NCBI GenBank assembly: GCA_033032865.1
Contig: JAWHQI010000019.1
Span: forward strand, 12,690,001-12,754,000
Reading direction: 5' to 3'
Origin: Dactylorhiza incarnata
Lineage: Eukaryota > Streptophyta > Magnoliopsida > Asparagales > Orchidaceae
DNA length: 64,000 nt
The position numbers and the translations under genes are program-made. The notes beneath the pieces were generated by a model. That model had not been told where the DNA came from. It made no database searches and saw only the letters and a list, made by a program, of their open reading frames with translations. This document shows positions 8,032 to 54,022 of this stretch, piece by piece (the stretch's first letter is position 1; each line of letters opens with the position of its first letter).

Positions 8032-8500
8032 TATTGGGTATATGACCCTCAATGTTCCCTTGATTTGAAGGTGCTTCACACTCAATGTTAAGTACAAGTT
8101 GTATTTGATAAACCCTATTTCATCCCATGACCATGCAGGGTTAGGTTATTCCAAGGTAAGAAGTAAGTTTAGTAGGTTTGCTGCCAAAACCACTGAGACA
8201 AGCTCTCTGTCTCAGCTGAACCACTGAGACAAGGTCAGGAGCCGCTGAGAAGGTGTCTGGGCCAGCTGAGCTGCAGATAGAAGAAAAGCGCTGAGATACT
8301 GTCTATCTCAGCAGGTCCGCTGGGACGGGACAGTAATAGCCATTGAGACTGCAGGCCATCTCAGACCAACTGCTGAGACAGATTCAAATGATCTGGCGGG
8401 TTTGCTTTTGGCGCAACACGCTGTAAAGCAAGATAGGAGGTTCCAATCACCTCCATACTGTGTCAGGAGGACATCTGATAGTCGTTGAAAACTGGAGGAG

Positions 8501-8508
8501 TATAAAAG
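8501..8508 (+). promoter_or_regulatory. TATA box of B 5' LTR
   Basis: TATAAAAG about 110 bp downstream of the last CTGAGACA motif. In the 3' LTR the same place reads TTTAAAAA, so that copy has lost the box. Confidence 0.7.
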
Positions 8509-15080: not shown

Positions 15081-15601
15081 TGTCAAATATTCCACTCTTT
15101 CAATCAAATATGATATTATGCATGTTACGTTGTGATTCAAAAAGTCGTCCTATCACATCAACTCCTACTGACATGATTAGGTCTTAACACATTCAGACCT
15201 CAAAAGGATTAATGATAAGGTAATAAGGTCAGCTAAAACAGACAAGATTATTTCAGCTGAGTTGCTGAGACGGCTGGGAAAAATCTCAACTGAGACCCTA
15301 AGACTGCTAAACAGTCCCAGCGGTTGATAGTGCTCTGTCCCAACGGTTTAGGTCATCGTCTCAACGGTTCCACTGAGACGGGCTGGTTCCATATCAGTTT
15401 GGCTAAATGCAACCCCAATTGACACAATTCTACTGGCAACTATAAGTTCACTCAAATCTACTTATTAGGGTTAATCATAACACAGATTTAAGCCATATAA
15501 ATAGACAATCATTAATTAGTGAAAGATACACAACCCTTCCTTCCTAGCCACCGAGACGAATCACATTCTCTTTCATCCCAGCGCATCCCTCTACAGCACC
15601 A
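15081..15601 (+). promoter_or_regulatory. Internal promoter region of the B accessory gene
   Basis: This 520-bp spacer has no open frame. Its first half (about 15229-15398) is packed with GCTGAGACGG, CAACTGAGAC, GTCTCAACGG and ACTGAGACGG, the same word family that fills U3 of the B and C LTRs. TATAAATAG follows at 15496-15504, and an ATG at 15602 is 98 bp further on, a normal 5'UTR distance in plants. I infer a separate promoter for the accessory gene, related to the LTR promoter. No transcription data are available. Confidence 0.65.
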
Positions 15602-16289
15602 ATGGCACCCAAGAGTTCAAAGGACCTTCTGGAGGGGTATGAGATAGTCAGAAATGGCTTTACCCATGCTCCAGAAGACATAAAATGAGTGATTCAACTC
15701 CTAGAAGCACAAGGGCTAGAATATACCCTTTCTGAACCTACTGTCATTCTCAGAACTGAAGTTCTGGAATGGTTTAGTAATGCCAAGTTATCCTCTTCCC
15801 AGTCCACCTTAAAGTCCAAAATAGGAGGAGAAAGAGTGAAAATCTCCTCAGCAAGAATTGAACAAGCTCTCCACATACCCTCATGCCACAAGGATAAGGA
15901 GGAAGAGATTTATGACAAGGATAAGCAGCTAGCTTTGAAATGGACTGAGTATAGTGATGCCAAGATTGGCTCATTAAAAAGGAAATTCTTCAATCAAAGA
16001 GGAAAATTACTATCAGATATTGTGGGCAAAGCACTCCTTTGAAAGCCAGGGTCTCATGATACCATTTCACAATCCATGTTTGATATCATGGCAAGGATCA
16101 TTCTGACAAAGAAAACTTCCTGGGGAGAAGTCATATTTCAGAGACTGAAGGAATGTCTGCAATCACCAAATATGGGTAGAATTCTATCCCTATATCTGAT
16201 CCAGACCTATTCTGAAAGGTTTAAGGGATTAAAAGGTTCAAATATTCATTACCTGAAAAGAATGGATATAAATGTTGGGTTTTTCTACA

Positions 16290-16965
16290 ACCATACATCG
16301 TATGTAGGCGCAGCGGAAATAAAGAGAAACAACCCAAAAAGATTCGGATCGGCCATGAACATTGAATCAAGAAGTAATGAAAACTACTAGGCAAAAATTA
16401 CCTTAGTGGAGTTGGATCGAATCCAATCTAGGTGCTCCAAGAAGAAGAATCCTGTCAGTGGCTATGCAAGAGTCCTCACGTAGAATGATGTCTACGTCTC
16501 TACAGTGATCCACACGAGCCGGGAGAAGAACGACTGCACCTTGCACTTCCACGAACTGCTAGGTTCGCTCCAGGAAGAACAATCACGACGACGATCGCCG
16601 GAGAGGAGGTCGGCGGAGGCGAACGGGGTGGCGAAACTCTTTCCGTCTAGGGTTCGGGCGAGAGGCGGAACTCCTTCCGTCGGCTGAACTTTTCGTAAGT
16701 AATAAGAACCCTAAAAGAAGATCTATTTATACCCAAAGCATAAACAGGCTTCTAGAAGAATCACTATCCGTAGACCACACAGCAGAATTGGGGTTTCTGT
16801 AACAATTCGTCGGGATTCCACGGAACAGCATTCGTCGAGTTTTCACGGTACAATTCGACGAATTCCGACGAATCATATCCGACGAATTCCAACGAATCAT
16901 ATCCGTGAAAACCCGATGAATTCTATCCGTGAAAACCCGACGAATTCTGACAGCAACATTTGCTG
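16290..16965. mobile_element. Insertion in the B accessory gene, probably a solo LTR
   Basis: The accessory reading frame ends in foreign DNA at about 16290 and recognisable B sequence resumes about 16965. The insert has LTR-like ends (TGTTGGGTTTTTC near 16273 or TGTAGGCGCAGCGG near 16305; CA near 16965), a TTTATAC word near 16727, and a 150-bp cluster of GACGAATTCC/ATTCGTCGG repeats with GTGAAAACCCG words (about 16805-16955). I could not find a clean target duplication, so exact ends and orientation are open. Confidence 0.5.
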
Positions 16966-18580: not shown

Positions 18581-18607
18581 AAGTTGAAAACAGCCCAAGT
18601 AAACTCC

Positions 18608-26742: not shown

Positions 26743-26779
<37 letters not shown>

Positions 26780-35085: not shown

Positions 35086-36838
35086 TGATAAGTGGTTTTT
35101 TTTATAACTTTTTAATAGAAAATTTTGTAAATATTTAATATGAATTTTCCTTTTATGTCAATTTTAGGTTATAAGTTAGCTCTTTTTGTAATTTTGATTC
35201 TAAAATAGCTTAATTTCAATTTTTGCAGAATTTTGGGACAAATCGGGAAAAATGGCATGTCACGCCCTCGGTCACGCCCGTGACCAAGGGCGTGTAACCT
35301 AAAGATCAGTCCAGAATGATGCCGCGCTGGCTGAGCTAGCCCACACCAAGTCACGCCCCAGGTCATGCCCGTGACCCAAAGTCACGCTCGTGACCAAGGG
35401 CGTGTAAACTTAGAATCTTCCACGTGGAGCCGCCGTCGAGACGTGGAGATGCTGTCGAGAAGTCAACCTAAGTCACGCCCGTGACCCACATGTCACGGCC
35501 GTGACTTTCCAGCGTGACCTCTGCTTCGCCACCGCACCGAATTCCAACCCACGCCGCATTTAATGCAGCCGTCCAAAGTCACGGCCGTGACCCGACATGT
35601 CACGCCCGTGACATGTCACTTTTCGCCGCGCCGAATTCGAGCCCACGCCGCTGTCGGATCTGATGTGAATAGTGCAGTCACGCCCTTGGTCACGCCCGTG
35701 ACCGAGGGCGTGTAATCTGAAATTTTTTCCTATAAATTCAGAGGTTCTCCTTGAGTCCAGGGTTCAGAATTTTGGAGTGGGGGAGGTGCTGCTGGAGCGA
35801 ATCCTGAGTATTTTTCACTTTCATGTTCATGTTCATGTTTCTTTCCTTTCATGTTCTCTTCTTTTTCTCATGCAATGTACTAGCTTTCTTTCAATGTAAT
35901 AGCCTAGTTTAAGTTTGTAACTTTGTTTTTCCTAGCTTGCAATCTCTTCTCTTAAGACTTGTAATAGTTTTCATTTAAATAAAAATTAGTTTGTTCTCTT
36001 GATTTTGTCTCCTCCTTACTTAGTTAAATTATCTTATTATGCATTTTTATTTTTCTTTCTCTTCCCCCTCCACCATGATTAACTAATCCTCATTAGTACT
36101 CGATCAAAATGATCCGAGGATGAGTTAAACAAGTTATGATTCTCTAAAGTTTTCTTTTTCCGTTTTTACAAACACTTGAATTACCCTTGATTTTTAATTA
36201 GTGAGGCCATATTTTCGATATATGGTTTTCGCTTATGTTTTCATACTTAGTTAGCCGAGAGGCTCAAAGTATGAATCGATCACTCAAGGGTAAAGAGAGT
36301 TGCACGCACTCCTCGAGATAGGATGACGTAAATCTCCTGGATTTGAGTCAAATCCAATAGCGGGGTTCACTTCGTAAAGCAAGTTTTAGGTAATCGATTA
36401 TAGGACGAGAGTCCGGTTGATTTTTCCTAAACTTAGTTGGGCATTAACCTCGAGAGAGACATGTTCGAGCTTCCGGAACCTCCACGGTCAAGTAGTTCAA
36501 TTTAAACGGAATTAGATTTAATTTCTTTTCACTTGTCTTTTCTCACGCCAAGGTGACTTTTGATTGAGTACTAGCCTCTTTTATCATCATCTAAACCCTT
36601 TATTTAGCTTGCAATTTCTCTTTTTCTAGCTAAGTAACCAAAACCCCAAAATATCATTAGATAAGATAATAGCGACTTTCCTCAAAGTAGAAGTAATCAA
36701 CGCGCCCCGTGGAATACGACCTTGGTATTTCTTAATATCCTATACTATAGACGATAAGGTACACTTGCCTTTATCGGATATAGTTTTGGAGAAGATCTCA
36801 AACCTTCACTAAATTTCAAAACCGCAAAATCAATATCA
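35086..36838 (+). repeat. 5' LTR of G (1753 bp)
   Basis: Direct partner of 55163-56875. U3 contains repeated GTCACGCCCGTGAC and GTCACGGCCGTGAC palindromes (35257-35710), TATAAATT at 35731-35738 just downstream, and the rest is AT-rich R/U5. It is longer than the 3' copy, mainly because two palindrome-containing segments are present here and missing there. Confidence 0.95.
35257..35710 (+). repeat. GTCACGCCCGTGAC palindrome cluster in G U3
   Basis: About ten copies of GTCACGSCCGTGAC or half-sites GGGCGTG/CACGCCC within 450 bp, ending about 20 bp before the TATA box. The same cluster is at 55336-55750 in the other LTR. Confidence 0.85.
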
Positions 36839-36844
36839 AGTTTT

Positions 36845-36862
36845 TGGCGCCGTTGCCGGGGA
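36845..36862 (+). other. Primer binding site of G (tRNA-Asp)
   Basis: TGGCGCCGTTGCCGGGGA, complementary to the 3' end of plant Asp tRNA, six bases after the LTR. Confidence 0.92.
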
Positions 36863-36960
36863 CTTTTGCGTAGATATTTTGAAACAAGGATAGCTATTAA
36901 GTTTATCATGTTGTTTTTATTTTAGTTTTTCTATTTTTGAAAATCTTAAGGGTGAAATTA

Positions 36961-37054
36961 AAATCTTGGAAAGGGACGTTTGGGGTGTCATCCCATCTCA
37001 CCTCCTAGTACCTTGCAAACCCTTCACCGGGTAGATCTTGGGAAGTCCAAGACT
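36961..37054 (+). repeat. 94-bp leader repeat of G, copy 1
   Basis: Begins AAATCTTGGAAAGGGACG and ends GGGAAGTCCAAGACT. It is about 90% identical by eye to 53929-54022 in the 3'UTR of the same element. It lies between PBS and gag. Confidence 0.9.
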
Positions 37055-37126
37055 AACTTAATCTGCCTAAAAGAACAAAAAAAAATATTCTCTCTTTTTC
37101 TTCTTCCTTCCTTCTCTTTTTAGTGT

Positions 37127-37923
37127 ATGACCCGTGGTAGCACTTCGATTCTTCCTTTTGATCCGGAAATCGAGCGAACCCTTTTGAGGCACCGCCGTTC
37201 TCGTGATCAAGGAAATCAAGTAGAATCTGAAGAGTCGATCGGGGACACTAACGCAGCGAACATGGATCATAATCTTAATCCTCCTAATCTTAACGAGCCA
37301 AATCCTAATGAGGACGCGCAACGGACCATGTCTTATTATGCGCGGCCGAATTTAGAAGGCACACAATCGAGTATTGTTCGCCCCACGGTGGCGAACAATA
37401 ATTTTGAGATCAAGTCCAGCATCATACAAATGGTGCAACAATCGGTGACCTTTGATGGTCAACCGGACGAGGATCCAAACTCACATATTTCTTACTTTCT
37501 TGAAATTTGCGACACATTTAAGATCAATGGCGTCACCGATGACGCCATTCGATTACGTCTTTTTCCTTTTTCTTTGCGGTCTAAGGCCAAGCAGTGGCTG
37601 GGCTCCCTACCAAGGGGATCCATCACTACATGGGCCGAAATGGCGGAAAAATTTCTCAATAAATATTTCCCGCCTTCAAAGACCGCTAAATTGCGCACGG
37701 ATATTGCGTCGTTCATGCAAATCGACTCGGAGACTCTCTATGACACATGGGAGCGCTTCAAGGAGCTTTTGCGCTGATGCCCTCACCATGCACTTGCCAC
37801 TTGGCAACAAGTGCAAATATTTTATAATGGCTGAAATCTCCAAACGAGGCAAATGATTGATGTGGCCGCCGGAGGGACATTAAATAATAAAACCAGATCG
37901 CCGCTCAAGAGCTTTTCGAAGAG
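37127..37923 (+). pseudogene. Athila-type gag of G
   Basis: ATG at 37127 (MTRGSTSILPFDPEIE). Core with FEIKSSIIQMVQQSVTFDG, DPNSHISYFLEICDTFKING, FPFSLRSKAKQWLGSLP and SETLYDTWERFKELLR is typical Athila gag. A TGA at 37775-37777, a second TGA near 37832 and a frame change near 37900 separate it from the continuing frame at 37924. The first TGA fits a CGA-to-TGA transition. Without these, gag and pol would be one frame. Confidence 0.9.
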
Positions 37924-40843
37924 ATGGCCACAAATGCGTACCAATGGAACATGCCCCGAGCGCGGCCTAATAAGTCGGCCGGAATTTTTGAAATAGACGC
38001 TAACGCAAATTTGGCTTTACAAGTTGAGCGCTTAACAAAGCAAGTGGCGGAGATGTCTGCTTCCTCCGCCACTCCTCCTTGGGCTAATAATGTTTTAATT
38101 GAAGAGCAAGTTGATTACATGGGAAATCCACCTCGGCCTTCCTATAACCCGAACACCCCTCCGTATAATAACACCTACAATGCGGGTTATAGGAATCATC
38201 CGAATTTCTCATGGAGCAATCAAGGAAATGCTCAGCGTCCCTTAAATTCAAATCAGCCTCCAAATCAACTTCTTAATTTAACTCCCCCTCCAAATTTTAA
38301 TCCACCCGGTTTTCCACCGCAACAGCAAAAGCCCTCTCCGCTTGAAGAGGTTTTTGCAAAATATGTTGCTACAAATGAAGCGAACATCCGGAACCTCACC
38401 GGATCGATCAAAAATTTGGAGAACCAAGTGGGCCAGCTAGCAAAGATAATCTCCGAGCGCCAGCAAGGAGCCCTTCCGGGAAACACGGAGCCAAACCCAA
38501 GGGAGAGCGCAAATGCGATTACACTCCGAAGCGGGAAGGAGGTGGTTTCAAAACAGGACGAACCCATGGTAACTTCCTCTCCTCCTCCTCCTCCTCCTAT
38601 TTTATCTTCGAAATTACCTGCTACGTTAGCTCCGCGCGCTTCTACTTCAAATATTCCGTATCCATCTAAGTTTAAAAGCGAGAGCGCCGAAAAGAATTAT
38701 AAAAAGTTTTTAGATATTTTAAAGCAAATTCACATTAATGTACCCTTCTGCGAGGCTATCTCTCAAATGCCTAAATATGCAAAATATCTTAAGGAGTTGC
38801 TCTCCAATAAGAAAAAATTAGAAGATATTTCGCATATTTCTTTGAACGCAGAATGCTCCGCGGTTGTACTCAACAAATTGCCTAGAAAAGTGAATGACCC
38901 GGGACGGTTCTCCATTCCGTGTTTATTTGGCAATTCGTTAGTAAAACACGCTTTAGCGGATCTGGGAGCAAGTATCAATCTCATGCCTTTTTCACTATTT
39001 AAGAAACTAGGTCTAGGAAATCCAATCCCCACTCGAATGAGTATTCAATTAGCGGATCGCTCTTTAAAATATCCGGTAGGAATAGTGGAGGACGTGCTCG
39101 TCAAGGTCGACAAGTTCATCTTCCCGATGGACTTTGTCATTCTTGACATCGAAGAGGATGCCGAAGTACCCCTCATACTCGGCCGCCCCTTCCTTGCCAC
39201 CTCCCGCGCCATTATTGACGCAAGTAACGGAAAGCTCCTCCTTCGGGTTGGAGACGATGAAGTTTCTTTCAGCATAAATTCCTCGATGCGGAACACATTA
39301 GAAAACGATGATTCGTGTTTTTACCTGGAAGAGTGTGGGGAATTCGATTCACCTCCCGAGTTAGTCTCCACCTCGAGTCACGAGTCCGAGCTCGCCGAAC
39401 TCTTTTGTCTGGAAGAAGAAGAAGTCACTCGTTTCACACCACCCGAACCACTATTTTTAGAAAAATTGAAAATCAAAACTTCTTATGAAGAACCACCCGT
39501 TTTAGAACTAAAGCAACTTCCCCCTCACCTTAAGTATTTATTTTTAGAAAAAGAGTCGAAGCTACCCGTCATCGTTTCATCCGAACTTAGCAACTCGGAA
39601 ATTTCTGAGTTAGCTATTGTCTTAAGAAAGCACCGCCACGCAATTGTGTGGCAAATTTTGGATATTAAGGGTATAAACCCTTCCTTCTGCACTCATAAAA
39701 TCTTTCTCAAAGATAATTCCCGAAATTTGGTCCAACCTCAACGGCGGCTAAACCCTAACATGAAAGAAGTCGTTAAGGCCGAAGTGATCAAACTATTGGA
39801 CGCGGGAATTATCTACCCGATATCGGATAGTACTTGGGTTAGCCCAGTACAAGTCGTACCGAAGAAAGGTGGCGTTACGGTAGTAGCTAACGAGAATAAC
39901 GAGTTGATCCCAACCCGTACTGTTACGGGTTGGCGGATGTGCATCGATTACCGAAAACTAAATGATGCCACCCGTAAGGATCACTTCCCTCTACCGTTTA
40001 TTGATCAAATCTTAGAGCGCCTTTCAGGTCACTCCTACTACTGTTTTCTCGATTGTTTGTCGGGATATTTTCAAATCCCAATTTCGCCCGACGACCAAGA
40101 GAAAACCACTTTCACTTGTCCCTTTGGCACATTCGCTTATCGAAGGATGCCATTTGGTCTTTGTAACGCGCCAGCTACATTTCAAAGATGTATGCTGGCG
40201 ATATTTGACGAGTTAGTAGAGGAGGTGATGGAAGTGTTTATGGACGACTTTTCCGTATTCGGAAACTCATTTAAAAATTGTTTAAAAAATCTTGAGCGTG
40301 TGTTGCAGCGATGCGAGGAAACGAATTTAGCACTTAATTGGGAGAAATGTCATTTTATGGTCAAGGAAGGATTAGTCCTTGGTCATAAAATTTCGGGCAT
40401 GGGGATCGAGGTCGATAGGGCCAAGATTGAAGTGATTGAAAAGCTCCCCCCTCCAACAAATGTAAAAGCTATTCCTAGTTTCCTAGGGCACGCAGGGTTC
40501 TATCGGCGCTTTATACAAAATTTTCCAAAATCACAAAGCCGTTAACCCATCTTCTTGAAAAGGAATCCTCATTTATTTTTAGCGATGAATGCCATTTGGC
40601 CTTTAAACTTATTAAAGAAAAACTTATACACTCCCCGATTCTAGTCGCGCCGGATTGGTCGCTCCCTTTTGAAATCATGTGCGACGCGAGTGACATTGCG
40701 GTTGGTGCTGTTTTAGGCCAACGGGTGAGTAAGTATTTCCACCATATTTATTATGCGAGCAAAACACTCACGTCGGCACAAGCGAATTACACCACTACCG
40801 AAAAAGAGCTTCTAGCGATCGTTTTTGCATTCGATAAGTTTAG
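37924..40843 (+). pseudogene. Gag C-terminus, protease, RT and RNase H start of G
   Basis: The 873-codon frame reads: gag end with a Pro/Asn-rich linker, protease active site ALADLGASINLMP and flap PLILGRPFLATSRAIIDA (about residues 345-440), RT with WRMCIDYRKLNDAT, FLDCLSGYFQIPI, YRRMPFGLCNAPATFQRCM and active site FMDDFSVFG (about 700-780), and thumb LGHKISGMGIEVDRAKIEVI. A single-base change near 40525 shifts the frame; RNase H continues (40596 on) with MCDASDIAVGAVLGQR and TTEKELLAIVFAFDKF, and is cut at 40843 by H. The continuation is at 51929. Confidence 0.93.
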
Positions 40844-42123
40844 TGTTGGATCGTGTGACGCCCTTAGAGGGGGAGGGGTGAATAAGGGTGTGTTTAAAAA
40901 TTAAATTTTTACTTAGTAATTTTTTAAAGAGATTTTACTTTTCTAAAAAGTTACTTATGAATAATTTTTAAACCAATGTAATTTTTGTATTTAACCAAAC
41001 ACAAATTTCTAAGATAAAGATTTAAGCAGACAAATTTGCAATTAGTGAAAAGAGCATAATTATATTAATCATGAAATTTGCATACAATAAAAATGATCTT
41101 AACAATGCTTAAGATCAAGGCACAATTATGATAATAAAAAATACAATAATTTTGGTTTACCAATCCTTCACCCAAGGATCGGAAGGCTATCACTTGTCTC
41201 TCCCAAGACCAAGCCCAAGCCTATCCTCTAGATCTTCCCAAGATCTAGACGTAGCACACAAGGCCATGATTTCCCACCAAGCCACGCAAGGACTTGGACG
41301 CTCCGCACAAGGAAGCGATTTTCCCCTAAGCCGCGCAAGGACTTAGACGCCGCACGCAAGACGACGATTTCTCTACCAATACAAAATGAAAAATATGTGA
41401 ATGAAAATACAATATGAAAAGAACAACTCCCTAGAAAATCAGATCTCTGAACGGATTGTTGAAGCCTCGAGATGATTGATGATGTAGAAGCGCGCCCGAT
41501 CTCGTCTTCAATCTTCAATCCTTCTTTGCACAAATGGGAGTTGAGGAGGTTCTGGAGCTCTCTGGTTCGTATGCACTCAGGAATGGACTGGAATTCTCAA
41601 AAGCTTGGAATGCACGAACCAAAGGAACCAATTTATAGAAAATTCACTGTCGCCTGGGCGACAGTGACTGTCGGAATTTTCCGACAGCGCTAAACTGCCG
41701 CTGGAGTGCCGTCGTGGGTGGAGTCGTGGGCAGTTGCTGTAACCGTCGAGCTGTCGCCTGGGCGACATCGATGTCGGATTTCCGACAGTGCAAAACTGCC
41801 GGTCGTGGGTGGAGACGTGGGCAGTTGTTGTAACCGCCGAGCTGTCGCCTGGGCGACATCGATGTCGGATTTCCGACAGCGCAAAACTGCCTTTCGTCGA
41901 TCTGCCGTGGAGGGAAGTAGTTGTAACTTCTCTGCTGTCGCCTGGGCGACAGTGGCTGCCGGAATTTTCCGACAGTGAAATTTTCCCACATTCAATTTTA
42001 GCTCCAGTAGCAATGTGAACATCTCATACCTGTTATCTGCACACCATTAATGAAAATAGAATCAAATACAAAAGGGACTTTGTTATTATCAAACCGGAGG
42101 AGTGCGAAACGCATGCTCCAACA
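40844..42123 (-). repeat. 3' LTR of H (left copy, 1280 bp)
   Basis: TGTTGGATCGTG to GCTCCAACA. Carries four palindrome pairs (41645-41980) next to the minus-strand TATA box (41637-41632). The R/U5 part (41165-41360) has stems around CCCA, e.g. CCTT/AAGG, GTCT/AGAC and AGATCTT/AAGATCT. Open frames inside are by-products. Confidence 0.95.
41645..41980. promoter_or_regulatory. Four palindrome pairs upstream of TATA in H LTR
   Basis: P1: arms CACTGTCGCC and GGCGACAGTG around TG (41645-41666), then P2: arms TGTCGGAA and TTCCGACA around TT (41669-41686). Further pairs with small changes lie at about 41750-41787, 41842-41878 and 41935-41975. The right LTR has the same at 51439-51775. In the direction of LTR transcription the order is P2, P1, TATA. 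Confidence 0.85.
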
Positions 42124-42400
42124 ATCTCCCCCTTTTGATAATAACAAATCCGTATAAAAAGAAATCATGTCTATTTAGATTTGATTTTAACCTTTGGTGT
42201 GTGCACAAAACAATAACATGATATATTTTCCTTAAAAATAAATAATCTATCTTGAGATGAAAGCTCCCCCTAAATGAATGCTCCCCCTACATATATGCTC
42301 CCCCTAAATATATGATGTATTGTGTAGGTGGAATATTTAGGTGTGATAGATTTGTGACTTTTCTTTTTATACTTTAAATTCTCCCCCTTTTGGTATTAGC
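42124..42400 (-). other. PPT and extra polypurine tracts of H
   Basis: Minus-strand PPT ATCAAAAGGGGGAGAT abuts the 3' LTR (42124-42139). Further AGGGGGAGC tracts lie at about 42262-42305 and AAAAGGGGGAGAA near 42380. Confidence 0.8.
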
Positions 42401-43447
42401 AAAAATGAACATTAGATAAAGGAGTAGCTTTTAAGGTAAAGGTAATAGAAAATAGAAATGAAGAGTAAGCGGAAGCAAAATGTTGGTAATGATTGAAGTC
42501 CATGAAATAATAGGAATATGCCATAGTATGAATAAGCCCATGAAGTGACGGTATAGCCATATGAAGTAATGAAAGAAAATAACCTAAACATGAGTAAGGT
42601 CATTTGAAAGTATCATAGAAAGACACAATAGTGTATAGATATATGGAATATTTTCGGTCCAATTCTCATGAGATGAATGTTTATATAACATAATGATGTG
42701 TACATGTGATACTTAGATCAAACATATGAAGTTATTTAATTTACATGATCATTAAAATGTAGAACATAATAAAAGCATATAAAGGCAACTTTGACTTTGA
42801 AGATATAGCACAAGATGAATAGAAAACCATGTTTCTTTTGCACAAGACACTTTACAATTCTTTCCAAGGTGCTTAACCTCACAATGCTCATTAAGATTTA
42901 TCAGGAGGGTAAGTAGTGCTTGGTGGAGTATCCTTGTCTTTATTTTTATTTTTTTTATCACAGACGTTGTGATATCTTAATTGTGATATATTGATATATT
43001 TTTTTTTAATTGACCAAGGATCTCCGAATTCACTTGAATCGCAAAAGATGGTGTATATTTTGTTGTGCTAACAAATCAATGTTGAAAGTTGTATTTAAGA
43101 AGTGTTATTTTATTATGTGAAAGCAAATATGATCCATGTATATATTAAATAAAAAGACATACGTATTGATCAAAAGAAGTGAACGTGATAGTTCATTATG
43201 ATAGATAAACAATTTCTCATACTTAGAGGCATGCGAAAACAATTTCCAATGGTCTAAACAACTAAGTAGGAGTGTCAATACGATGATAGCTTGGAAATGA
43301 AATCATATAAACATGTAAGAGTCATTTTTTTTAAATAAAAAAACACATGGTTTGACATCAAATCATGAGGTGAAGCATTAATGACATATAACTATTGTAA
43401 ATCATTCAAGGGACCCAAAATTGATTTTTTTTTAGCACATTTGGAGC
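42401..43447. other. H spacer between extra PPTs and the accessory promoter
   Basis: AT-rich 1-kb stretch. I see no gene, no palindrome pair and no strong repeat in it; open frames are short and uncharacteristic. Confidence 0.6.
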
Positions 43448-43502
43448 TGTCGGAAAATTCCGACACCCACTGTCGCCTGGGCGACAGCCAAAAATATAAA
43501 AA
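43448..43502 (+). promoter_or_regulatory. Promoter of the H antisense gene: P2, P1 and TATA
   Basis: P2 TGTCGGAAAATTCCGACA (43448-43465), P1 with arms CACTGTCGCC and GGCGACAGCC (43468-43489), then TATAAAAA at 43495-43502, five bases after P1. The order and spacing copy the H LTR promoter, but here on the opposite strand. Confidence 0.75.
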
Positions 43503-43598
43503 GGGCATCAGACCGAGTCAAACCCTATTGTACATCATTTCCTGGAGTTAAAAACGTGAGGAAGGCTGTCGGAAGTCGGCGACATCTCTAGATCTAAG

Positions 43599-44128
43599 GT
43601 ATGGAATTTTGATTTTTATGTTTTTAACCCAAAATTGTTTAGGGATTTTTTATTTTTAAAGGAGAGAAGAAAGAAGATGAAGTTTTCATTTTGATTTTTG
43701 ATGAATGGTGTAGGTTTTGAAAAAAAATTTATTTTAAAAATGTAGATCTAGTTTAAAACAAGTGGATCTTGGTGGATCTTTGAAAAATTTTTTATCTTTG
43801 TTAAATTTCTTTTTGATTTTGAGATGAAGGTTTCCATTTGTTCATTTTCTAAAGGATTTTTGTAGATCTAGTTTAGAGAAGGTGGAAGATGATGAATAGT
43901 AAAGGATTTGTAGAATATGTTGATTTAAAAAAAATATTTTTTTTTAAAACTTGATGTTGAAATAACATTTATTTTGAGTAGATCTGGAAGTATATGTAAA
44001 AATTTTGAGAGAAAATCACTTGGAGGGCTGTCAGAAATTTCCGACAGTCACTGTCGCCTGGGCGACAGTGTTCCAGTGCACAATGTGATACCATGTTTAA
44101 TCAAAAAAATTTTTGTATGTTATTGCAG
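43599..44128 (+). other. Predicted 5'UTR intron of the H antisense gene
   Basis: Donor CTAAG|GTATGG and acceptor TATTGCAG|A, two bases before ATG 44130. It is T/A-rich and 530 bp long. It includes another P2-P1 pair at 44029-44070. Splicing would place the palindrome pair inside the transcript but remove it from the mRNA. Confidence 0.6.
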
Positions 44129-44129
44129 A

Positions 44130-45245
44130 ATGGCTTCCAGTTCCAAAGCTCGAAAGAGTACTTCGGAAGATGCACATACTTCATATCAAGTTTTTCCGGG
44201 GGTGGAGAAGGCTATTGTTGGAATAGCGAAGTATGTGGAATTTGAGTCGCCAAAGCACGATCATATCTATGATCGGCTTGCGAACGCAGGTATAATTTCA
44301 ATAATCACACCAGAGGGGTTTTCTTCCTTTTTCATTCATGAATTTTATAACCATTTGGAAGACCCAAATTTCACTGAATTGGATGGCGGAGTGAGATCAA
44401 AGATCCAAGGTCAACATGTGGAAATAACACATGTTGATCTTCGAGAGGAATTTGGACTAGTGATGAGTGAGAATATGCCTGATATAGTGGAGAATTATCG
44501 AAAGGATAGAGATTGGACCCTTGTAAACATGAGTTTACATGGGAATCAAAAGAAGACTCTTACCACCGAAGTTACGTCACTTACTCCGGATGCTTTCTTA
44601 GTCCAAGATATATTAAGGAATTCAGTGATGTTAAAGAGTGGAGATACAAGAAGCATTACGGCTCAGTTGACCCTCTTTACATACTATATTATGGAGGATG
44701 AGCTTTTTGATGTGGCGAACTTCATACTCGCCCAGATTAGGTATGCGTATAGATTAAAGCATCCAAGATGGTTGAAGGTTCATACGCTGCCAATGGGGGC
44801 GGTAATACAGCGTGTACTCTACAAGAAGTATGGATGGATAGTGCAAGGTGCTTATATGGATGATTGTTACCCGGAAATATATTATACGGGTTCAATGAAG
44901 GTGAAGAAGCCGCGGAGAAAAGCTCATCCGGGGATTGAGATTAGAGAGCCGACCATTTCTAGGGCAGGATCACTACGAGAGTCCATTGATGATTTGCGTG
45001 ATTCATTAGAGGATCACAAGAGGGAAGTGAAGAAGGACCGTAGTCGAATGCAGAAATTTATGAAGTTTCTCGTCAAAGGTCTGAAGTTGAAACCAACTCC
45101 GGAGGAAGAGGCCGAATGGCAAGTTTCGGACGAAGAACCGCCACGCCAATCGGTGAGGCGAACTCGCCGTGGCAAAGCCGTGAGACGAGGACCTCCAGAA
45201 GATTGTCCAGAGAGCAGCGGGGCTGGTTATGAAGATTCAGAGTAG
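44130..45245 (+). CDS. Antisense accessory protein of element H (371 aa, intact)
   Basis: Open on the strand opposite to gag-pol. I choose ATG 44130 (MASSSKARKSTSEDAHTSY) because a strong acceptor ends at 44128; codons upstream would lie in the intron. Residues about 25-260 form a globular domain (FFIHEFYNHLEDPNFTELDG, KIQGQHVEITHVDLREEFGL, GDTRSITAQLTLFTYYIM, LKVHTLPMGAVIQRVLYKKY) that resembles by eye the putative plant transposon protein domain (PF20167). About 275-325 is a predicted coiled coil (SLRESIDDLRDSLEDHKREV). Arg-rich RRTRRGKAVRRG lies near the C-terminus. No membrane segment or signal peptide is visible. It has no stop or shift although pol nearby is broken. Function unknown; nuclear regulator is inference. 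Confidence 0.75.
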   Translation: MASSSKARKSTSEDAHTSYQVFPGVEKAIVGIAKYVEFESPKHDHIYDRLANAGIISIITPEGFSSFFIHEFYNHLEDPNFTELDGGVRSKIQGQHVEITHVDLREEFGLVMSENMPDIVENYRKDRDWTLVNMSLHGNQKKTLTTEVTSLTPDAFLVQDILRNSVMLKSGDTRSITAQLTLFTYYIMEDELFDVANFILAQIRYAYRLKHPRWLKVHTLPMGAVIQRVLYKKYGWIVQGAYMDDCYPEIYYTGSMKVKKPRRKAHPGIEIREPTISRAGSLRESIDDLRDSLEDHKREVKKDRSRMQKFMKFLVKGLKLKPTPEEEAEWQVSDEEPPRQSVRRTRRGKAVRRGPPEDCPESSGAGYEDSE

Positions 45246-45538
45246 TTTTATGTTGCTGCTGCTGCTGGGCGATGTCGGAAAATTCCGACATCCACTGTCG
45301 CCTCGGCGACAGTGAACTTCTTTAGATTTCTGTTTTTGTTTAAAGAACTTGATCCTTAAGTTTGTTCTACTGTTTTTATGTGAACAATATTGATGTAATA
45401 TTAATGATGTTGAATTTTTGTTAAGTCCTTTGAAATTTTATGTTTTGATTTTTAGAATTTTGGCTTTTTGTTTTTACATTGTTTATGTTTTGTGATAATA
45501 ATTTTTTTTTATTTTATAGGCTTTAAATTGTGATATAT
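45246..45538 (+). other. Convergent spacer between H antisense gene and pol
   Basis: Contains a P2-P1 pair (45273-45290 and 45293-45314, P1 centre TC) just after the antisense stop, then AT-rich DNA. Pol transcripts arrive from the right and the antisense transcript from the left, so 3' ends meet or overlap here. Confidence 0.7.
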
Positions 45539-48500
45539 TCATTGTGAAATGTCTAGAATGCCCAATTCTAGCCTAAGCATAGAAAAACGGGAATCCGGTA
45601 ACGGCTTAGTGAATATATCCGCTAGTTGATTTTCCGTGCCTATAAAGTTGATTTTTATATTACCCTTCTTAATGTGATCCCTTATAAAATGATGTCGGAT
45701 GTCTATATGCTTAGATCTAGAATGTAATACGGGATTGTTTGTTAAGTCTATAGCACTTTTATTATCACACTTTAATTCTACACTACTTTGTGGTATGCCA
45801 AAATCTTCTAACGTTTGGGACATCCAAAGTGCTTGGGCACAACAACTACCTAATGCAATATATTCGGCCTCAGTAGTAGAGAGGGCAACAGAATTCTGTT
45901 TCCTACTCGACCATGAAATAAGTGAAGGGCCGATAAAGTGACAAGTGCCACTAGTGCTTTTCCTATCTAAAGAACATCCCGCATAATCAGAATCCGAAAA
46001 ACCATGCAAAATAAAAGAATCATTATGAGGATACCATAAACCTAATTTTGATGTTCCAATGAGATATCTAAAGATACGTTTCACCGCTTTTAAATGTGAC
46101 TCTTTAGGATTAGCTTGAAATCTAGCACATAAACAAACGGCAAACATAATATCAGGTCTAGATGCGGTTAAATACAATAAAGACCATATCATACTTCTAT
46201 AAAGGGTTTGTTCAATTGAAACACCACTTTCATCTTTTCCTAATTTTAGTGAAGTACTCATAGGAGTGTTTGCATGCTTAAGGTTTTCAAATCCAAATCT
46301 TTTTAACATATCATGAATATATTTGGTTTGACATATAAAAATTCCATCATGTTTTTGTGTTATTTGAAAACCTAGAAAATATGAAAGTTCTCCAACCATG
46401 CTCATTTCAAATTCATTTTTCATAATTTGAACTACTTCATTACACAACTCTTCATTAGTGGCTCCAAAAATAATATCATCAACATAAATTTGTAAAATAA
46501 CTAAATCATGATCAATTTGCTTAATGAAGAGTGTAGAATCAGCACTTCCAATTTTATAATCGTGCTTTAACAAATATTGAGTTAATCGATCATACCAAGC
46601 ACGAGGCGCTTGTTTTAATCCATAAAGCGCTTTATCTAATTTATAAACATAATTTGGATATTTCTCATTTATAAAGCCAGGGGGTTATTCTACATAAACT
46701 TCTTCTTTTATATACCCGTTTAAAAATGCGGTTTTGAGATCCATTTGATATAATTTAAATCTTTTAAAACAAGCAAATGCAAGAAATATTCTAACCGCTT
46801 CTAATCTTGCTACGGGTGCAAAAGTTTCATCAAAATCTACCCCTTCAATTTGTGCATAACCTTTTGCAACTAATCTGGCTTTATTTATAACAATTCTAGA
46901 TTCATTATCCATTTTATTTTTAAAAATCCACTTAACACCAACTACAGGACGATTTTTTGGTCATTCTACAAGATTCCAAACCTTATTACGTTCAAATTGA
47001 TTAAGTTCTTCATTCATAGCTAAAAACCAAAATTCATCATTTAAAGCGGTGGAAACATCTTTTGGTTCTATTTCAGAAACAAAACAAAGGTTTGAAAATA
47101 AAACATGTAGTGATGAACGAGTACTAACCCCTTTTTGCGGATCCCCAATGATAAGCTCCTTTGGAATATCCTTTGAGAATCTCAAATCACTTGGAGGCAC
47201 ATATCCTTCTCTTTCTTCTTCTTCTCTATCTTCTTCTCCTCTTTCTTCTTCTCTTTCTTCTTCTTTTTCTTCTTCATTTTCTCCAAGTTCTTCTTCATCA
47301 TTTTCCACCGTGGGAAGGAGTTCATCTTCTTTTCCTGTAATTTTCTTTTCTACACATGAAGTAAACTCATCAAACCTAACATGAATAGATTCTTCAACTA
47401 TTTTTGTTCTTTTATTAAAAATTCTATAAGCTTTACTAGTTGAAGAATAGCCAATAAAAATACCTTCATCACATTTTTCATCAAATATTCCTAAAGAATC
47501 TTTAGAATTCAAAATAAAACATTTACAACCAAAAACTTTGAAATAAGAGACATTTGGTTGTTTATTAAAAATTAATTCATAAGGGGTTAATTTTAAAATA
47601 GGGCGAAGCATTACTCTATTAATTACATAACATGTCGTGCTAACCGCTTCAGCCCAAAAAGATTTTGGTAATTTGAATTCAGATAACATTGTACGGGCTA
47701 ACTCTTGAAGAGTTCTATTTTTCCTCTCCACTACACCATTTTGCTGTGGTGTGCGTGGAGCGGAAAATTCATGTTTAATTCCTAACTCCGTACAAAAAGA
47801 AATAAACTTTTCATTTTCAAATTCTCCTCCATGATCCTATCGTATGCGTTTAATTTTCAACTCAAATTCATTTTGGATACGCAAACATAATTTTGAAAAT
47901 TCTGAAAATACATCGGATTTGGAGGTTAAAAATAAAGTCCAACAAAAACGAGAATAATCATCAATCAATACAAATGTGTATTTTCTAACTCCTAAGCTAG
48001 AAATTCCAATTGGCCCAAATAAATCCATATGTATTAATTGAAGTGGCCTAGTGGTAGAAATAATGTTTTTACTTTTGAAAGATGATTTTGAAAATTTTCC
48101 TTTTTGGCAGGGCACACAGAGTGAAGAAGATAAATTCCCATTTAACAAAGGTAAACCTTTAATTAATTTATCTTTTGAAAGTTTTGTAATTAACTTGGCA
48201 CTAGCATGTCCAAGTCGCCTATGCCATAAATCTAATTCATCATTTTTTGATAGAAAACATTTCAAAGTAGAATTTGAAAAATCAAGAAATTTAATCATAT
48301 ATACATTATGACATCTAGGTGCGGTAAAAACAATTTCATTTGTTTTGGAATTAATAATTTTGCACAAATTTGTAGAAGATTCAAATAAAACATTTAAACC
48401 CTTATCACATAATTGACTAATAGAAATCAAATTATGCTTTAATCCTTCTACAAATAAAACATTTGAAATTGAAAAATTTTCGTTACCCACAACACCGATG

Positions 48501-48655
48501 CCGATGATTTTTCCTTTTCCATTGTCACCGAATGTAACAACTCCTCCTTTCTTCATCTCCAGGCTAAGGAACTTCTCTTTATTGCCCGTCATGTGCTTTA
48601 AACAACCCGAGTCCAAGTACCACACGTCTTCTTTGTCCTTAGCCTGCCAACACAC
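45539..48655 (-). pseudogene. Copia pol of H: protease, integrase, RT, RNase H
   Basis: A single minus-strand frame holds VWYLDSGCLKHMTG (protease), LWHRRLGHAS and CVPCQKGK (integrase finger), IHMDLFGP with DHGGEFE and PQQNGVVERKNRT (triad), an acidic Glu/Arg-rich spacer (about 47190-47300), RT with [32 protein letters not shown] and an intact IYVDDIIFGA, and RNase H ending ADIFTKPLPDSRFSML. It is broken by TAG at 47837-47839, TGA at 46961-46963 and TAA at 46685-46687, with no frameshift seen. Stop codons fit C-to-T changes. The stop is at 45539. Confidence 0.94.
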
Positions 48656-48679
48656 CTAGAAAGAAGAGGTGAGTAAAGA

Positions 48680-50587
48680 TCTGGTTACCCAAGTGGTTCC
48701 ACCCATAGTATAGGTAGAAGCCTTAGGCACCCAGATTTGTTTGATTTTACTTTTTCCTTCTTTCCAGCAAGAGTCCGTAGTGTGACCAAATCTATTGCAT
48801 TTGGCACATGTAATGTATTTAGAAGAGTATAATTTTTTGGACTTTTACTGGATGAGGATGCAGTATTTGATATTTCATTAATTTTAGAATTTTTAAAAGT
48901 GAATTTTCTGGACTTTTCACTGTCGCCGGCGACAGTGGTTGTCGCCGGGCGACAGCTTCCAGATGTGTATCCGAGCCCAACCCTTCCAGATCCATGGCGT
49001 TGGTATCCTAAGATCATATCCAGTGATCTTCGGCCCATTCCAAATTTTTTCATGGCTAGTGTTAAGTCATGAATCTGGTGTCTCATTTTTGTATTCTCGG
49101 ATACTAGATTTACGCATCTCCGTTCAAAAGATTTCTTTCCCTCATGGACTATGGAAATTGAAGATTTCAGATCTCTCTCTAAAATCTCATTCTTTTTAGT
49201 AAGTACATTTATTGTAGAATGAGATTTGGAAAGAGATTCTTCAAGTTCCTTAATTCTTCCCAAAAAGTGATCACACTCTTGGCAAGAAATATCTCTTTTT
49301 CCAATAGTCTTAATTTCATTTAACAATTTTTTGTTTTCTTTAAGTAAAATTCCATTTTCAGATTTTAGAAGATCATTATCTTTTAAACTTTTTTTCAAAA
49401 AATTTGCAAGTCTTTAAAAATTCAGAAAACAATTCATCATAAGTTGGAGGAGTTACCTCAGTGTCGCTTTGGACACTGCATTCGTCATCAGATATGACGC
49501 TCTTTCCCATTAAGCATATGTTGGCCTCCTCCTCTTTACTTGAGTCGGAACTGCTTGCATCCTCAGAAGTAGTATCATCCCAGGTTTCCGCCTTCAACAC
49601 CTTCTTCGACCCTTTGTGCTTCTTTTCTTTAAGTTCTTTCAAGTACTTTGGACACTTGCTTCGAATGTGTCCTAACTTATTGCAGTGATAGCACTCCGGT
49701 GGCGGTCTCTCTTCCTCCTCATCGCCCTCCTTTCCTTTTTTCTTCCTAAAAGTCTCCTTCTTAAAATACTTCTTAAACGAATTCCTTCTCTCTGGATTTT
49801 TCATAAATTTTCTAAATTTTTTAACAAATAAACTTTCCTCATCTTCTTCATCCTCCTCAGAATCACTAGTTTCTTCCTTCTTTGATCTTAGAGCCAATCC
49901 CTTCTTCCTTGGCTCCTTATACTCTTGTTGTTGAATTTTTAATTCAACTTCATGAGTTTTCAAGTTCCCAATGAGGCTCTCCAATTGTAAGGTCTTAAGA
50001 TCATGTGACTCGGAAATTGCAGTCACTTTAGGATTGAACTTCGGGGGAAGTGATCTTAAGATTTTCCTTACCAAATCTCCATTTGAGAACACCTTTCCTA
50101 GCACCTTTGAGTCGTTCACGATTTTTGTAAACCGTGTGTACATTGTATCAATCTCTTCATCTACCTCCATTTTGAACCTTTCAAATTCAGATTCCAGTTG
50201 AAATAGCTTTGAGTCCTTTACCTGCGAAGTACCTTCATGAGTGATTTCTAATAAATTCCAAATTTCAAATGCAGAATTACAAGCACAAACTCTATTAAAT
50301 TCAGTGCGATCTAGTGCGCAAAATAAAGCATTCATGGCTTTTGCATTGTTCTTACATCTTAATTTATCATTATCATCCCACTTATCTTTGGGCTTATCCA
50401 TAGTTACATCTCCTACAACAATTGTTGGAGAAGTGTAACTAGATTCTACCATATTCTAGACTTCTATATCTAGCGCAATTAGAAAACAACGCATACGTGT
50501 TTTCCAATAATTATAGTCTGTTCCCGTAAAAAGTGGTGGCCTACTAATTCCTTGCCCCTCAACGAACGCGTGATCATTGTGCGCCAT
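48680..50587 (-). pseudogene. Sirevirus-type gag of H
   Basis: The probable start is ATG at 50587, in frame with the longer open part 50452-49376 but separated from it by a TAG at 50456-50458 (a Trp position in relatives). Gag core: LRCKNNAKAMNALFCALDR, FEIWNLLEITHEGTSQVKDS and RKILRSLPPKFNPKVTAI. First knuckle is CYHCNKLGHIRSKCP. After a frame change near 49385 a coiled-coil tail follows (49398-48685, LLKENKKLLNEIKTIG). The second knuckle CAKCNRFGHTTDSC appears only after another frame change near 48837. The coiled-coil tail between two knuckles is as in B. Confidence 0.9.
48918..48955. repeat. Palindromes inside H gag coding region
   Basis: A perfect 20-bp palindrome, CACTGTCGCCGGCGACAGTG (48918-48937), then TTGTCGCCGGGCGACAG (48939-48955). 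They lie in the gag linker between coiled coil and second knuckle, in reading frame and without stop. Confidence 0.85.
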
Positions 50588-50621
50588 TACTCCTGGTGGT
50601 AAAACCATTTTGGAGTAACCT

Positions 50622-50634
50622 GGCTCTGATACCA
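50622..50634 (-). other. Primer binding site of H (tRNA-iMet)
   Basis: Minus strand TGGTATCAGAGCC, two bases from the LTR. Confidence 0.92.
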
Positions 50635-50636
50635 CT

Positions 50637-51923
50637 TGTTGGATCGTGTGATGCCCTTAGAGGGGGGGGGGGTGAATAAGGGTGTGTTTAAAAATTAAAT
50701 TTTTACTTAGTAATTTTTTAAAGAGATTTTACTTTACTAAAAAGTTACTTATGAATAATTTTTAAACCAATGTAATTTTTGTATTTAACCAAACACAAAT
50801 TTCTAAGATAAAGATTTAAGCAGACAAATTTGCAATTAGTGAAAAGAGCATAATTATATTAATCATGAAATTTGCATACAATAAAAATGATCTTAACAAT
50901 GCTTAAGATCAAGGCACAATTATGATAATAATAAATACAATAATTTTGGTTTACCAATCCTTCACCCAAGGATCGGAAGGCTATCACTTGTCTCTCCCAA
51001 GACCAAGCCCAAGCCTATCCTCTAGATCTTCCCAAGATCTAGACGTAGCACACAAGGCCACCATTTCCCACCAAGCCACGCAAGGACTTGGACGCTCCGC
51101 ACAAGGAAGCAATTTTCCCCTAAGCCGCGCAAGGACTTAGACGCCGCACGCAAGACGATGATTTCTCTACCAATACAAAATGAAAAATATGTGAATGAAA
51201 ATACAATATAAAAAGAACAACTCCCTAGAAAATCAGATCTCTGAACGGATTGTTGAAGCCTCAAGATGATTGATGATGTAGAAGCGCGCCCGATCTCGTC
51301 TTCAATCTTCAATCCTTCTTTGCACAAATGGGAGTTGAGGAGGTTCTGGAGCTCTCTGGTTCGTATGCACTCAGGAAAGGACTGGAATTCTCAAAAGCTT
51401 GGAATGCACGAACCAAAGGAACCAATTTATAGAAAATTCACTGTCGCCTGGGCGACAGTGACTGTCGGAATTTTCCGACAGCGCTAAACTGCCGCTGGAG
51501 TGTCGTCGTGGGTGGAGTCGTGGGCAGTTGCTATAACCGTCGAGCTGTCGCCTGGGCGACATCGATGTCGGATTTCCGACAGTGCAAAACTGCCGGTCGT
51601 GGGTGGAGACGTGGGCAGTTGTTGTAACCGCCGAGCTGTCGCCTGGGCGACATCGATGTCGGATTTCCGACAGCGCAAAACTGCCTTTCGTCGATCTGCC
51701 GTGGAGGGAAGTAGTTGTAACTTCTCTGCTGTCGCCTGGGCGACAGTGGCTGTCGGAATTTTCCGACAGTGAAATTTTCCCACATTCAATTTTAGCTCCA
51801 GTAGCAATGTGAACATCTCATACCTGTTATCTGCACACCATTAATAAAAATGAAAATAGAATCAAATACAAAAGGGACTTTGTTATTATCAAACCGGAGG
51901 AGTGCAAAACGCATGCTCCAACA
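50637..51923 (-). repeat. 5' LTR of H (right copy, 1287 bp)
   Basis: Direct repeat of 40844-42123 with few differences. Minus-strand TATAAA at 51431-51426 is 7 nt from the nearest palindrome (51439-51460). Confidence 0.95.
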
Positions 51924-51928
51924 TTTAG

Positions 51929-53501
51929 GTCATACATCACCCTCTCGAAAGTTATCATCTTCACGGATCACTCCGCACTTAGGTATCTTTTAAGCAAATC
52001 GGATGCCAAGCCTCGTCTTTTGCGATGGATCCTCCTCTTGCAGGAGTTTGACTTAGAGATCCGGGACAAAAGAGGAGCCAAAAACTTGGCGGCCGATCAT
52101 CTTTCTCGTCTAGAAAACCCCGCCTCCGAAGTATTGATAGAATCTGACATCGATGATAAATTTCCCGAAGAGCGCCTCCTCGCTCTCGAAAATATTAATT
52201 CATCGTCTACCCCCTGGTTTGCAGATCTGGCTAACTATTTAGTAGCCCGGGTCCTGCCGAAAGAATTCTCGAGTCAGCAAAAGAAGAAATTCTTTTCTGA
52301 TTTAAAGAATTACTTTTGGGAGTGCCCCTTTTTATTCCGTGTATGCGCAGACCAAGTGGTGAGACTATGCGTCTCGAGTGAGGAGGGTCTTAAAATTTTA
52401 TGACATTGTCACGAGGGACCATCCGGTGGTCATTATCATTCAAACCGAACCGCGAGGAAGGCGCTGGAGGAGGGCTTTTATTGGCCCTCGCTCTTCAAAG
52501 ATGCTCACACCCTTGTGAGTACTTGCGACAGCTGCCAGCGGTCGGGGAACACCTCTCGCCGGGATGAGATGCCCCAAAATATTTTCTTAGAATGCGAAAT
52601 TTTCGATCTTTGGGGCATTGATTTCGTTGGTCCTCTCCCTCCTTCGCTTTCAAATAAGTATATTCTAGTAGCGGTCGACTACGTGTCGAGGTGGGCGGAA
52701 GCGCAAGCTCTCCCCACCAACGATGCGCGAGTCGTCGTTAACTTTTTAAAAAAATTATTCTCTCGATTTGGCACTCCGCGCGCTATTGTGAGTGATCGGG
52801 GCACCCATTTTTGCAATACACAATTCACAAAAATCTTAGCAAAATATGGTGTCACACACAAATTATCCACTGCATATCACCCACAAACGAGCGGCCAAGT
52901 CGAAGTTGTTAATCGAGAATTAAAACGGATTTTAGAAAAAACAGTTTCTATTAATCGGAAGGATTGGGCAATAAAGCTCGATGACGCGCTATGGGCCTAT
53001 CGAACGGCGTACAAGACCGCTATCGGTTGTACACCATATCGAATGGTCTATGGCAAGGCTTGCCACCTTCCGGTCGAATTAGAACACCGCGCATTTTGGG
53101 CACTTAAATTTTTAAATCTTGATTCTACTTTAGCAGGCGAACAAAGAAAATTTCAAATGAACGAATTGGATGAGTGGAGAGCGAATGCGTATGAGAGTAA
53201 CAAATTATATAAGGAGCGAACAAAGTTTTATCACGACAAACATATAAAATTTCCAAAAACTTTTTCGCCGGGCGATCTCGTCCTCCTTTATAATTCTCGT
53301 CTTCGCCTTTTTCCGGGAAAGCTGAAATCTCGATGGTCCGGGCCTTTTATTGTTAAAGAGGTTTGGTCCTATGGGACAATTCTAATTTCCCACCCGGAAA
53401 AAGGTTCCTTCAAAGTTAACGGGCACTGCCTTAAATTGTATCTTCCGGGAGACTTACCTAATGGCAAGAGTGATGCGATATTTCTTCATAATATAACATG
53501 A
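51929..53501 (+). pseudogene. RNase H end and integrase of G
   Basis: [20 protein letters not shown] closes RNase H. One frame (52020-53501) then contains [13 protein letters not shown] tether sequence ([18 protein letters not shown]), a TGA at 52401-52403, the HHCC finger ([18 protein letters not shown]), the integrase triad in [18 protein letters not shown] and [13 protein letters not shown], and the GPY/F module ([12 protein letters not shown]). The stop is at 53499-53501. The TGA just before the finger fits a CGA-to-TGA change. Otherwise integrase looks intact, with all catalytic residues present. Confidence 0.93.
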
Positions 53502-53928: not shown

Positions 53929-54022
53929 AAATCTTGGAAAGGGACGTTTGGGATTTTATCCCATCACACCTCCTAGTACCTTGCGAACCCTTCACGGGGT
54001 AGCCCTTGGGAAGTCCAAGACT
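53929..54022 (+). repeat. 94-bp leader repeat of G, copy 2
   Basis: Partner of 36961-37054, same orientation, here in the 3'UTR 430 bp after the integrase stop. Confidence 0.9.

Follow-up and report, generated by a model that had tools for sequence, protein, structure and literature searches.

A palindromic cassette common to the LTRs and to the candidate promoter of an antisense accessory gene in a Sirevirus-like retrotransposon

In the DNA from Dactylorhiza incarnata analysed here (64,000 nucleotides, referred to below as the window), a retrotransposon that we call H carries an accessory gene in antisense orientation, and the same pair of palindromes, P2 and P1, precedes a TATA box both in its LTRs and ahead of that gene. 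This raises the question of whether the two promoters are served by the same DNA-binding factor, and whether such a factor would come from the host or from the element itself. The features of H that bear on this question are the following, with positions counted within the window.

40844..51923, minus strand: element H, a Sirevirus-like Ty1/copia retrotransposon (self-comparison, boundary sequence and Pfam)
50637..51923, minus strand: 5' LTR of H, with four P2-P1 cassettes at 51441-51769 and TATAAA (minus) at 51426-51431
40844..42123, minus strand: 3' LTR of H, with four P2-P1 cassettes at 41647-41975 and TATAAA (minus) at 41632-41637
41644..41687, minus strand: TATA-proximal P2-P1 cassette of the 3' LTR (from the sequence)
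42126..42388, minus strand: five AGGGGGAG polypurine tracts, starting at 42126, 42264, 42281, 42298 and 42381 (plus coordinates)
43447..43500, plus strand: candidate internal promoter, with P2 at 43448-43465, P1 at 43470-43487 and TATAAA at 43495-43500
43567..43584, plus strand: in the predicted 5' UTR, a hybrid site TGTCGGAA-GTC-GGCGACA that joins P2 (left half) to P1 (right half)
43599..44128, plus strand: predicted 5'-UTR intron (GT..AG), splice sites placed by eye
44028..44070, plus strand: second internal P2-P1 cassette, with a single mismatch in P2, within the predicted intron, no TATAAA close by
44130..45245, plus strand: antisense accessory ORF of 371 aa, matching PF20167 (Transposase_32) weakly and below the curated cut-off
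45271..45314, plus strand: third internal P2-P1 cassette, starting 25 nt past the accessory stop codon, no TATAAA close by
48918..48954, minus strand: P1-like doublet in the gag coding frame (from the sequence)

H is flanked by a TTTAG target-site duplication (40839-40843 and 51924-51928) and is inserted in a Ty3/gypsy element. Its Pfam matches (copia gag, pre-integrase, integrase-region and RT), together with its multiple polypurine tracts and its primer-binding site, indicate a Sirevirus-like Ty1/copia element. The primer-binding site AGTGGTATCAGAGC, which we take to be of the tRNA-Met type, adjoins the 5' LTR and corresponds to the site conserved in Sireviruses. The final AGGGGGAG octamer begins 10 bp before the 3' LTR, in agreement with the published Sirevirus signature of multiple polypurine tracts in the linker, the last octamer lying 10 bp upstream of the 3' LTR (PMC2829016). 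Positions 1-4160 of the window (right end approximate) hold a further Sirevirus-like element, of which the 3' end is present, with six AGGGGGAG tracts at 2044-2363; its linker of ~400 bp contains no ORF of at least 60 aa, and there is no repeated palindrome among those listed for its LTR. The two LTRs of H are 98.3% identical (15 substitutions in 1280 aligned sites, plus 7 gap columns), a K2P divergence of 0.012 that corresponds to ~0.45 million years at a substitution rate of 1.3e-8. The gag-pol frame is disrupted (no fewer than three in-frame stops and two changes of frame), and the antisense ORF is still open; given the short time since insertion, we do not take this as a sign of selection.

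A preliminary description of this DNA had placed P2, P1 and TATAAA in this order in the LTR of H, and the order is indeed found there and is repeated in the 5' LTR. Read on the minus strand, the 3' LTR has P2 at 41687-41668, the P1 core at 41663-41648 within a 24-bp palindrome (41667-41644), and TATAAA at 41637-41632; the 5' LTR has the same layout, with P2 at 51481-51462, the P1 palindrome at 51461-51438 and TATAAA at 51431-51426. All four cassettes of each LTR are upstream of TATAAA, one of them adjacent to it; in the 3' LTR, the distal P2 deviates at a single position (CTGCCGG). The half-site CTGTCG is common to both palindromes. P2 (TGTCGG..CCGACA) contains a CGG-CCG core, which P1 (TGTCGCC..GGCGACA) lacks; P2 has 6 bases between its hexamers, reduced to 4 in the LTR copies c2 and c3, and P1 has 4.

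On the other strand, the same arrangement had been described ahead of the antisense gene, and it is present at 43447-43500 of the plus strand; from the end of GGCGACA to TATAAA there are 8 nt at the accessory gene and 10 nt in both LTRs. The occurrence of one cassette at the element's promoter and at the inner gene goes beyond chance: with variant-tolerant patterns, the internal region of H contains 5 P1, 3 P2 and 3 complete cassettes, none of which appeared in 1000 dinucleotide shuffles. The further claim that the cassette stands before promoters holds for the TATA-adjacent LTR copies and for the one at 43447; two of the three internal cassettes have no close TATAAA and a P1 pair lies in gag, so that it fits only part of the distribution. 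By a rough estimate, the chance of finding TATAAA so close to at least one of the three internal cassettes is ~0.024. The first two internal cassettes (43447 and 44028) lie upstream of the accessory gene, as linker boxes of Sireviruses do, and the third lies downstream of it.

When two of the four LTR cassettes are compared with all three internal ones, 36-38 of 41 positions agree, and the internal cassettes agree among themselves at 35 to 38 of 41. At the centre of P1, read from P2 to P1, the four LTR cassettes have CA and the three internal ones TG, TG and TC, meaning that internal P1 is not an exact copy of LTR P1 in this orientation. The sequences before and after the 43447-43487 cassette align to the LTR no better than shuffled ones (equalled or surpassed by 232 and 218 of 300 shuffles), and the same holds for those after the third and second internal cassettes (120 and 206 of 300). 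We also considered that the internal cassettes were part of a copied LTR core promoter; this was dropped, as the flanks are without similarity. Conserved P1 arms around a variable centre are the pattern expected of a dyad protein site; short-tract copying could also have left such a pattern in the one element examined. In the gag doublet, the two P1 variants are missing one and two central bases. The doublet directly follows a GLGY motif, and nothing similar was seen by eye after the GLGF of the gag of E2, a second family described below.

The antisense gene itself has the features of a separate transcription unit. Transcription would start some tens of bases downstream of the TATA at 43495, and the predicted exon 1 (43520-43598) contains no ATG. 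The predicted intron, with GT at 43599 and AG at 44127-44128, contains 15 ATGs and leaves a single base (44129) before the ATG of the ORF, so that splicing would clear all of these ATGs from the leader of the ORF. An intron on the strand opposite to the genomic RNA can outlast retrotransposition, and since the genomic RNA of H is of the opposite strand, this one may have survived. For the 371-aa protein, a Pfam search found no DNA-binding domain and gave PF20167 at 28.9 bits (gathering cut-off 45, E 1.3e-6), a domain for which a partial match is also reported in a sunflower Athila accessory protein (PMC11728184). Its C-terminal part contains a basic stretch, RRTRRGK. Among 1178 candidates that have words in common with it, in a collection whose plant coverage is uncertain, none was a homologue at E 0.001; a PDB search returned no relative at E 1, and single-sequence AlphaFold2 gave a mean pLDDT of 37.5, a fold that is not usable. 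Pattern matches to H in eight bacterial or archaeal contig stretches and in one viral one gave no confirmed related locus, and the P1 pattern had no match in viral contigs; such sets say little about a plant element.

Based on this, we suggest that the accessory gene of H is a separate antisense unit whose promoter and LTR are under the same dimeric-type DNA-binding factor or factors, a reading that we consider somewhat better than even. The gene would have its own Pol II promoter at 43447-43500; this promoter and the LTR U3 would have the ~41-bp two-palindrome cassette in common; and sequence-specific, probably dimeric factors would recognise the inverted CTGTCG half-sites at both places, so that both promoters, carrying the same cassette, would answer to the same factors. 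We infer four things from the sequence: that the TATA at 43495 drives transcription, that the intron exists, that a factor binds and that the two promoters are co-regulated. A rigid dimer would disfavour the variation of the arm gap in the gag P1 copies and in the LTR P2 copies c2 and c3, and this counts against a common factor. The P1 doublet in gag, the two internal cassettes that lack a nearby TATA, a few H-type hexamers in the gypsy element and the published ENV-containing Sireviruses that lack boxes count against it as well.

A second family in the window, E2, provides a comparison, together with its relative E3. Its features are as follows.

~8032-9257 and ~26242-27529, plus strand: LTRs of E2, 89% identical
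8193..8506, plus strand: U3 of the E2 5' LTR, with CTGAGACA/TGTCTCAG half-sites, then TATAAA at 8501
15265..15501, plus strand: candidate internal promoter of E2, with four CTGAGAC/GTCTCAA half-sites at 15265-15379, then TATAAA at 15496
15602..16387, plus strand: start of a broken sense accessory gene of E2, with ATG at 15602 and open pieces 15602-15685, 15689-16039 and 16043-16387
23931, 24304 and 25162: three exact polypurine-tract octamers of E2

Half-sites of the E2 LTR, then TATAAA, then ATG thus follow each other in a layout similar to that of H, which counts in favour of a common factor. Four LTR half-sites fall within 130 bp after pol, a density reached in none of 2000 shuffles, and the distance from the start of the last half-site to TATAAA is 123 nt at the E2 internal site, 128 in the E2 5' LTR and 137 in the E3 LTR; in the E2 3' LTR, TATAAA is missing at that place. 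The TATA placements alone have chances of ~0.024 and 0.030 for H and E2, the range for E2 having been set after the data were seen. Exact E2 half-sites number 5 and 5 in the LTRs, 5 in the linker after pol and 1 before the ENV-like ORFs; there are none in E2 gag-pol and two other E2 parts, none in six parts of H or four of the gypsy element, and 3 in a copia element nested in E2. The alignment of the E2 U3 with the linker is weak (shuffles as good in 7 of 300 for its own LTR and 0 of 300 for E3). The E3 LTR (28040-28420, minus strand) is related to E2 and has CTGAGAC/GTCTCAG half-sites ahead of its TATAAA. The copia nested in the E2 linker (17407-23821), which has a 1040-aa ORF from gag to RT and a single polypurine-tract octamer, separates the E2 accessory promoter from later E2 ORFs. 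Two of these, in sense orientation at 24444-25868 before the 3' LTR, are of no clear family and are possibly the rest of an ENV-like gene; one of them has an apolipoprotein match far below the cut-off.

A check proposed in the preliminary description was that LTR and internal boxes should change together from family to family. They match within H and within E2, with different motifs in the two, which supports a coupling between LTR box and accessory gene; this agreement, and with it the support for a common factor, rests on one copy of each family. The E2 piece 15689-16039 has PF20167 as its best match (E 0.0023, below cut-off), and the piece 16043-16387 has no PF20167 match. In BLASTP, two open E2 accessory pieces had no significant match to the H protein (best E 3.8 and 2.9), so the kinship of the two proteins rests on their weak PF20167 matches only.

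Palindromes of this kind also occur in the Ty3/gypsy element around H, which has its own in U3 (GGTCACG..CGTGACC and CACGCCC..GGGCGTG, at 35255-35731 and 55332-55768), the last ending 18 nt before TATAAA. The LTRs of this element hold 29 and 24 of its half-sites and its interior 1 and 1, and 5 more occur in the nested copia. Beside its integrase ORF, a scan of 51929-55162 found no ORF of at least 100 aa, and a scan of 36839-37200 found none that reached 60 aa. These gypsy palindromes stand against the view of Bousios 2010 that such boxes are Sirevirus-specific and absent from classic copia elements (PMC2829016).

One candidate for the common factor is the accessory protein: like Tas or VANC, it may bind the P2 and P1 boxes of the LTR and of the promoter of its own gene. 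The cassettes of H lie in the LTR, the promoter, the predicted intron and after the gene, which are the classes of site at which the VANC21 signal is found, namely introns, intergenic and terminal non-coding regions of its own transposon (PMC5735166), and foamy viruses offer a documented accessory transactivator, Tas, whose targets are both the LTR and an internal promoter (PMC3798896). H and E2 also differ in both motif and accessory protein, and the basic C-terminus of the H protein would suit such a role. On the other hand, 4 of 13 boxed Sireviruses have LTR palindromes and no ENV, and six ENV-containing Sireviruses lack boxes (PMC2829016); the outer gypsy element has LTR palindromes and no accessory ORF in the scanned stretches, and Pfam gives the H protein no DNA-binding domain beyond the weak PF20167 match. 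We therefore regard self-regulation as a possibility, albeit a doubtful one. Either a host transcription factor or the accessory protein fits; the former is more likely, since boxes occur in elements without an accessory gene.

The palindromic modules might instead have no common function and have spread passively within H, through template switching or through copying over short distances. The P1 doublet in gag coding sequence and the two internal cassettes without a close TATA would be expected from this, and the unrelated flanks are as seen with short copied tracts. Exact hexamers are, however, concentrated: the two LTRs hold 15 and 16 and the region of the accessory gene 13, whereas gag holds 5, pol 1 and the 1.3 kb preceding the 3' LTR none. 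Outside H, they are absent from all seven E2 parts, the copia nested there has 1, and the gypsy parts have 2, 2, 1 and 1. As E2, moreover, shows the same layout with another motif, we find passive spread improbable.

Host auxin-response factors (ARFs) can be named as a candidate because P2 is an inverted repeat of TGTCGG, their preferred and strongest half-site (PMC10690724); LTRs and gene would then answer to auxin. AtARF5 binds IR5, IR6 and IR9 at lower affinity, and promoters with these repeats are weakly inducible (PMC10690724); TGTCTC, another listed ARF element, lies within the E2 half-sites. The preferred spacing is nevertheless 7 or 8 (PMC10690724), and P2 is an IR6, or an IR4 in c2 and c3; P1 is TGTCGC with 4 bases between, and, in the published table as read by eye, a TGTC/GACA pair occurs in none of the 13 Sirevirus consensus boxes (PMC2829016). 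We thus give ARFs a slim chance of being the factor; they and the accessory protein are both special cases of a shared factor, and their odds overlap with it. That the palindromes act as hairpins, as RNA folds or small-RNA sources for silencing and not as protein sites, seems very improbable, for although complex palindromes in the regulatory region of maize Sirevirus LTRs are hotspots of small-RNA mapping (PMC5311732), the arms in H hold the same letters with no compensating pair changes, and the TATA-adjacent position at both promoters would be left without explanation.

A shared factor at LTR and accessory gene has its nearest known parallel in the repeated motifs of Sireviruses, a closer one than the VANDAL/VANC system named in the preliminary description. 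Bousios 2010 described palindromic repeated motifs upstream of the LTR TATA in 13 Sireviruses, with further boxes in the linker of 9 of 9 ENV-bearing and 0 of 4 ENV-less elements, 77 of 79 of these lying upstream of ENV (PMC2829016). As in H, the palindromes are present in many copies upstream of the LTR TATA, recur in the linker near the ENV-like gene and are family-specific; the published count of at least 8 palindrome copies per element is reached in H when P1 and P2 are pooled, each box type having 4 copies in one LTR and 3 in the linker (7). The cassette of H differs in being an ordered composite of two palindromes, where the published table gives one consensus per element, and in that P1 lacks the CGG-CCG core present in 12 of 13 boxes (PMC2829016). 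Its accessory gene is antisense, with a TATA and a predicted intron; the word "antisense" is absent from the accessible text of that paper, which favoured an internal promoter for ENV without conclusive identification (PMC2829016).

Like H, foamy viruses have an accessory gene with an internal promoter that has its regulator in common with the LTR, for H on our reading. The action of Tas is established (PMC3798896), whereas a regulator acting on H is a proposal, and tas follows env in 5'-to-3' gene order, unlike the antisense gene of H. The non-coding DNA of VANDAL elements contains transposon-specific motif repeats that vary from one related family to another, as do the boxes here; these elements are, however, DNA transposons, their VANC21 motif (YAGTATTAY) is not given as a palindrome, and VANC binding is demonstrated (PMC5735166). 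The internal cassettes of H without a TATA, in the intron and after the gene, may suit a VANC-like or chromatin role better than that of a simple operator. The named plant examples of antisense accessory ORFs that are known to us belong to Ty3/gypsy elements, unlike H. One of them, Grande gene23, runs antisense and is driven by a promoter of its own, and it and other such ORFs lie, as in H, between pol and the 3' LTR with a promoter upstream; a palindrome common to LTR and internal promoter is not mentioned in the accessible part of that account (Vicient and Casacuberta 2020, PMC7264820). For the antisense proteins of Retand, DNA binding and regulation have been proposed (PMC11963269).

Palindromic boxes that precede the LTR TATA or lie close to an ENV-like gene, and the idea of an internal promoter, are thus already published (PMC2829016). 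New here are the two-box composite, the antisense orientation of a gene that has a TATA and a predicted intron, and E2, with different boxes in a similar layout. A literature search over titles and abstract openings, mostly of papers outside subscription journals, found no LTR palindrome shared with the TATA promoter of an antisense gene.

The TATA-linked LTR box at an antisense gene rules out readthrough of that gene from the 5' LTR, and it bears on the role of Sirevirus palindromes and on how ENV-like genes are expressed. As a single short cassette is involved, its deletion should affect two promoters together. We speculate, as a generalisation that we hold to be unlikely on present comparisons, that Sirevirus accessory genes, sense or antisense, might encode self-specific regulators of the palindromes of their own family (in LTR, promoter, intron and post-gene DNA), in a coevolving autoregulatory or anti-silencing circuit, which among plant LTR retrotransposons would correspond to foamy-virus Tas or to VANC; the orientation of the gene would then be free, because a copy of the promoter module comes with it. 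Should the element itself encode the regulator, the accessory genes of an abundant group of plant retrotransposons would be tied to anti-silencing or to control specific to the element.
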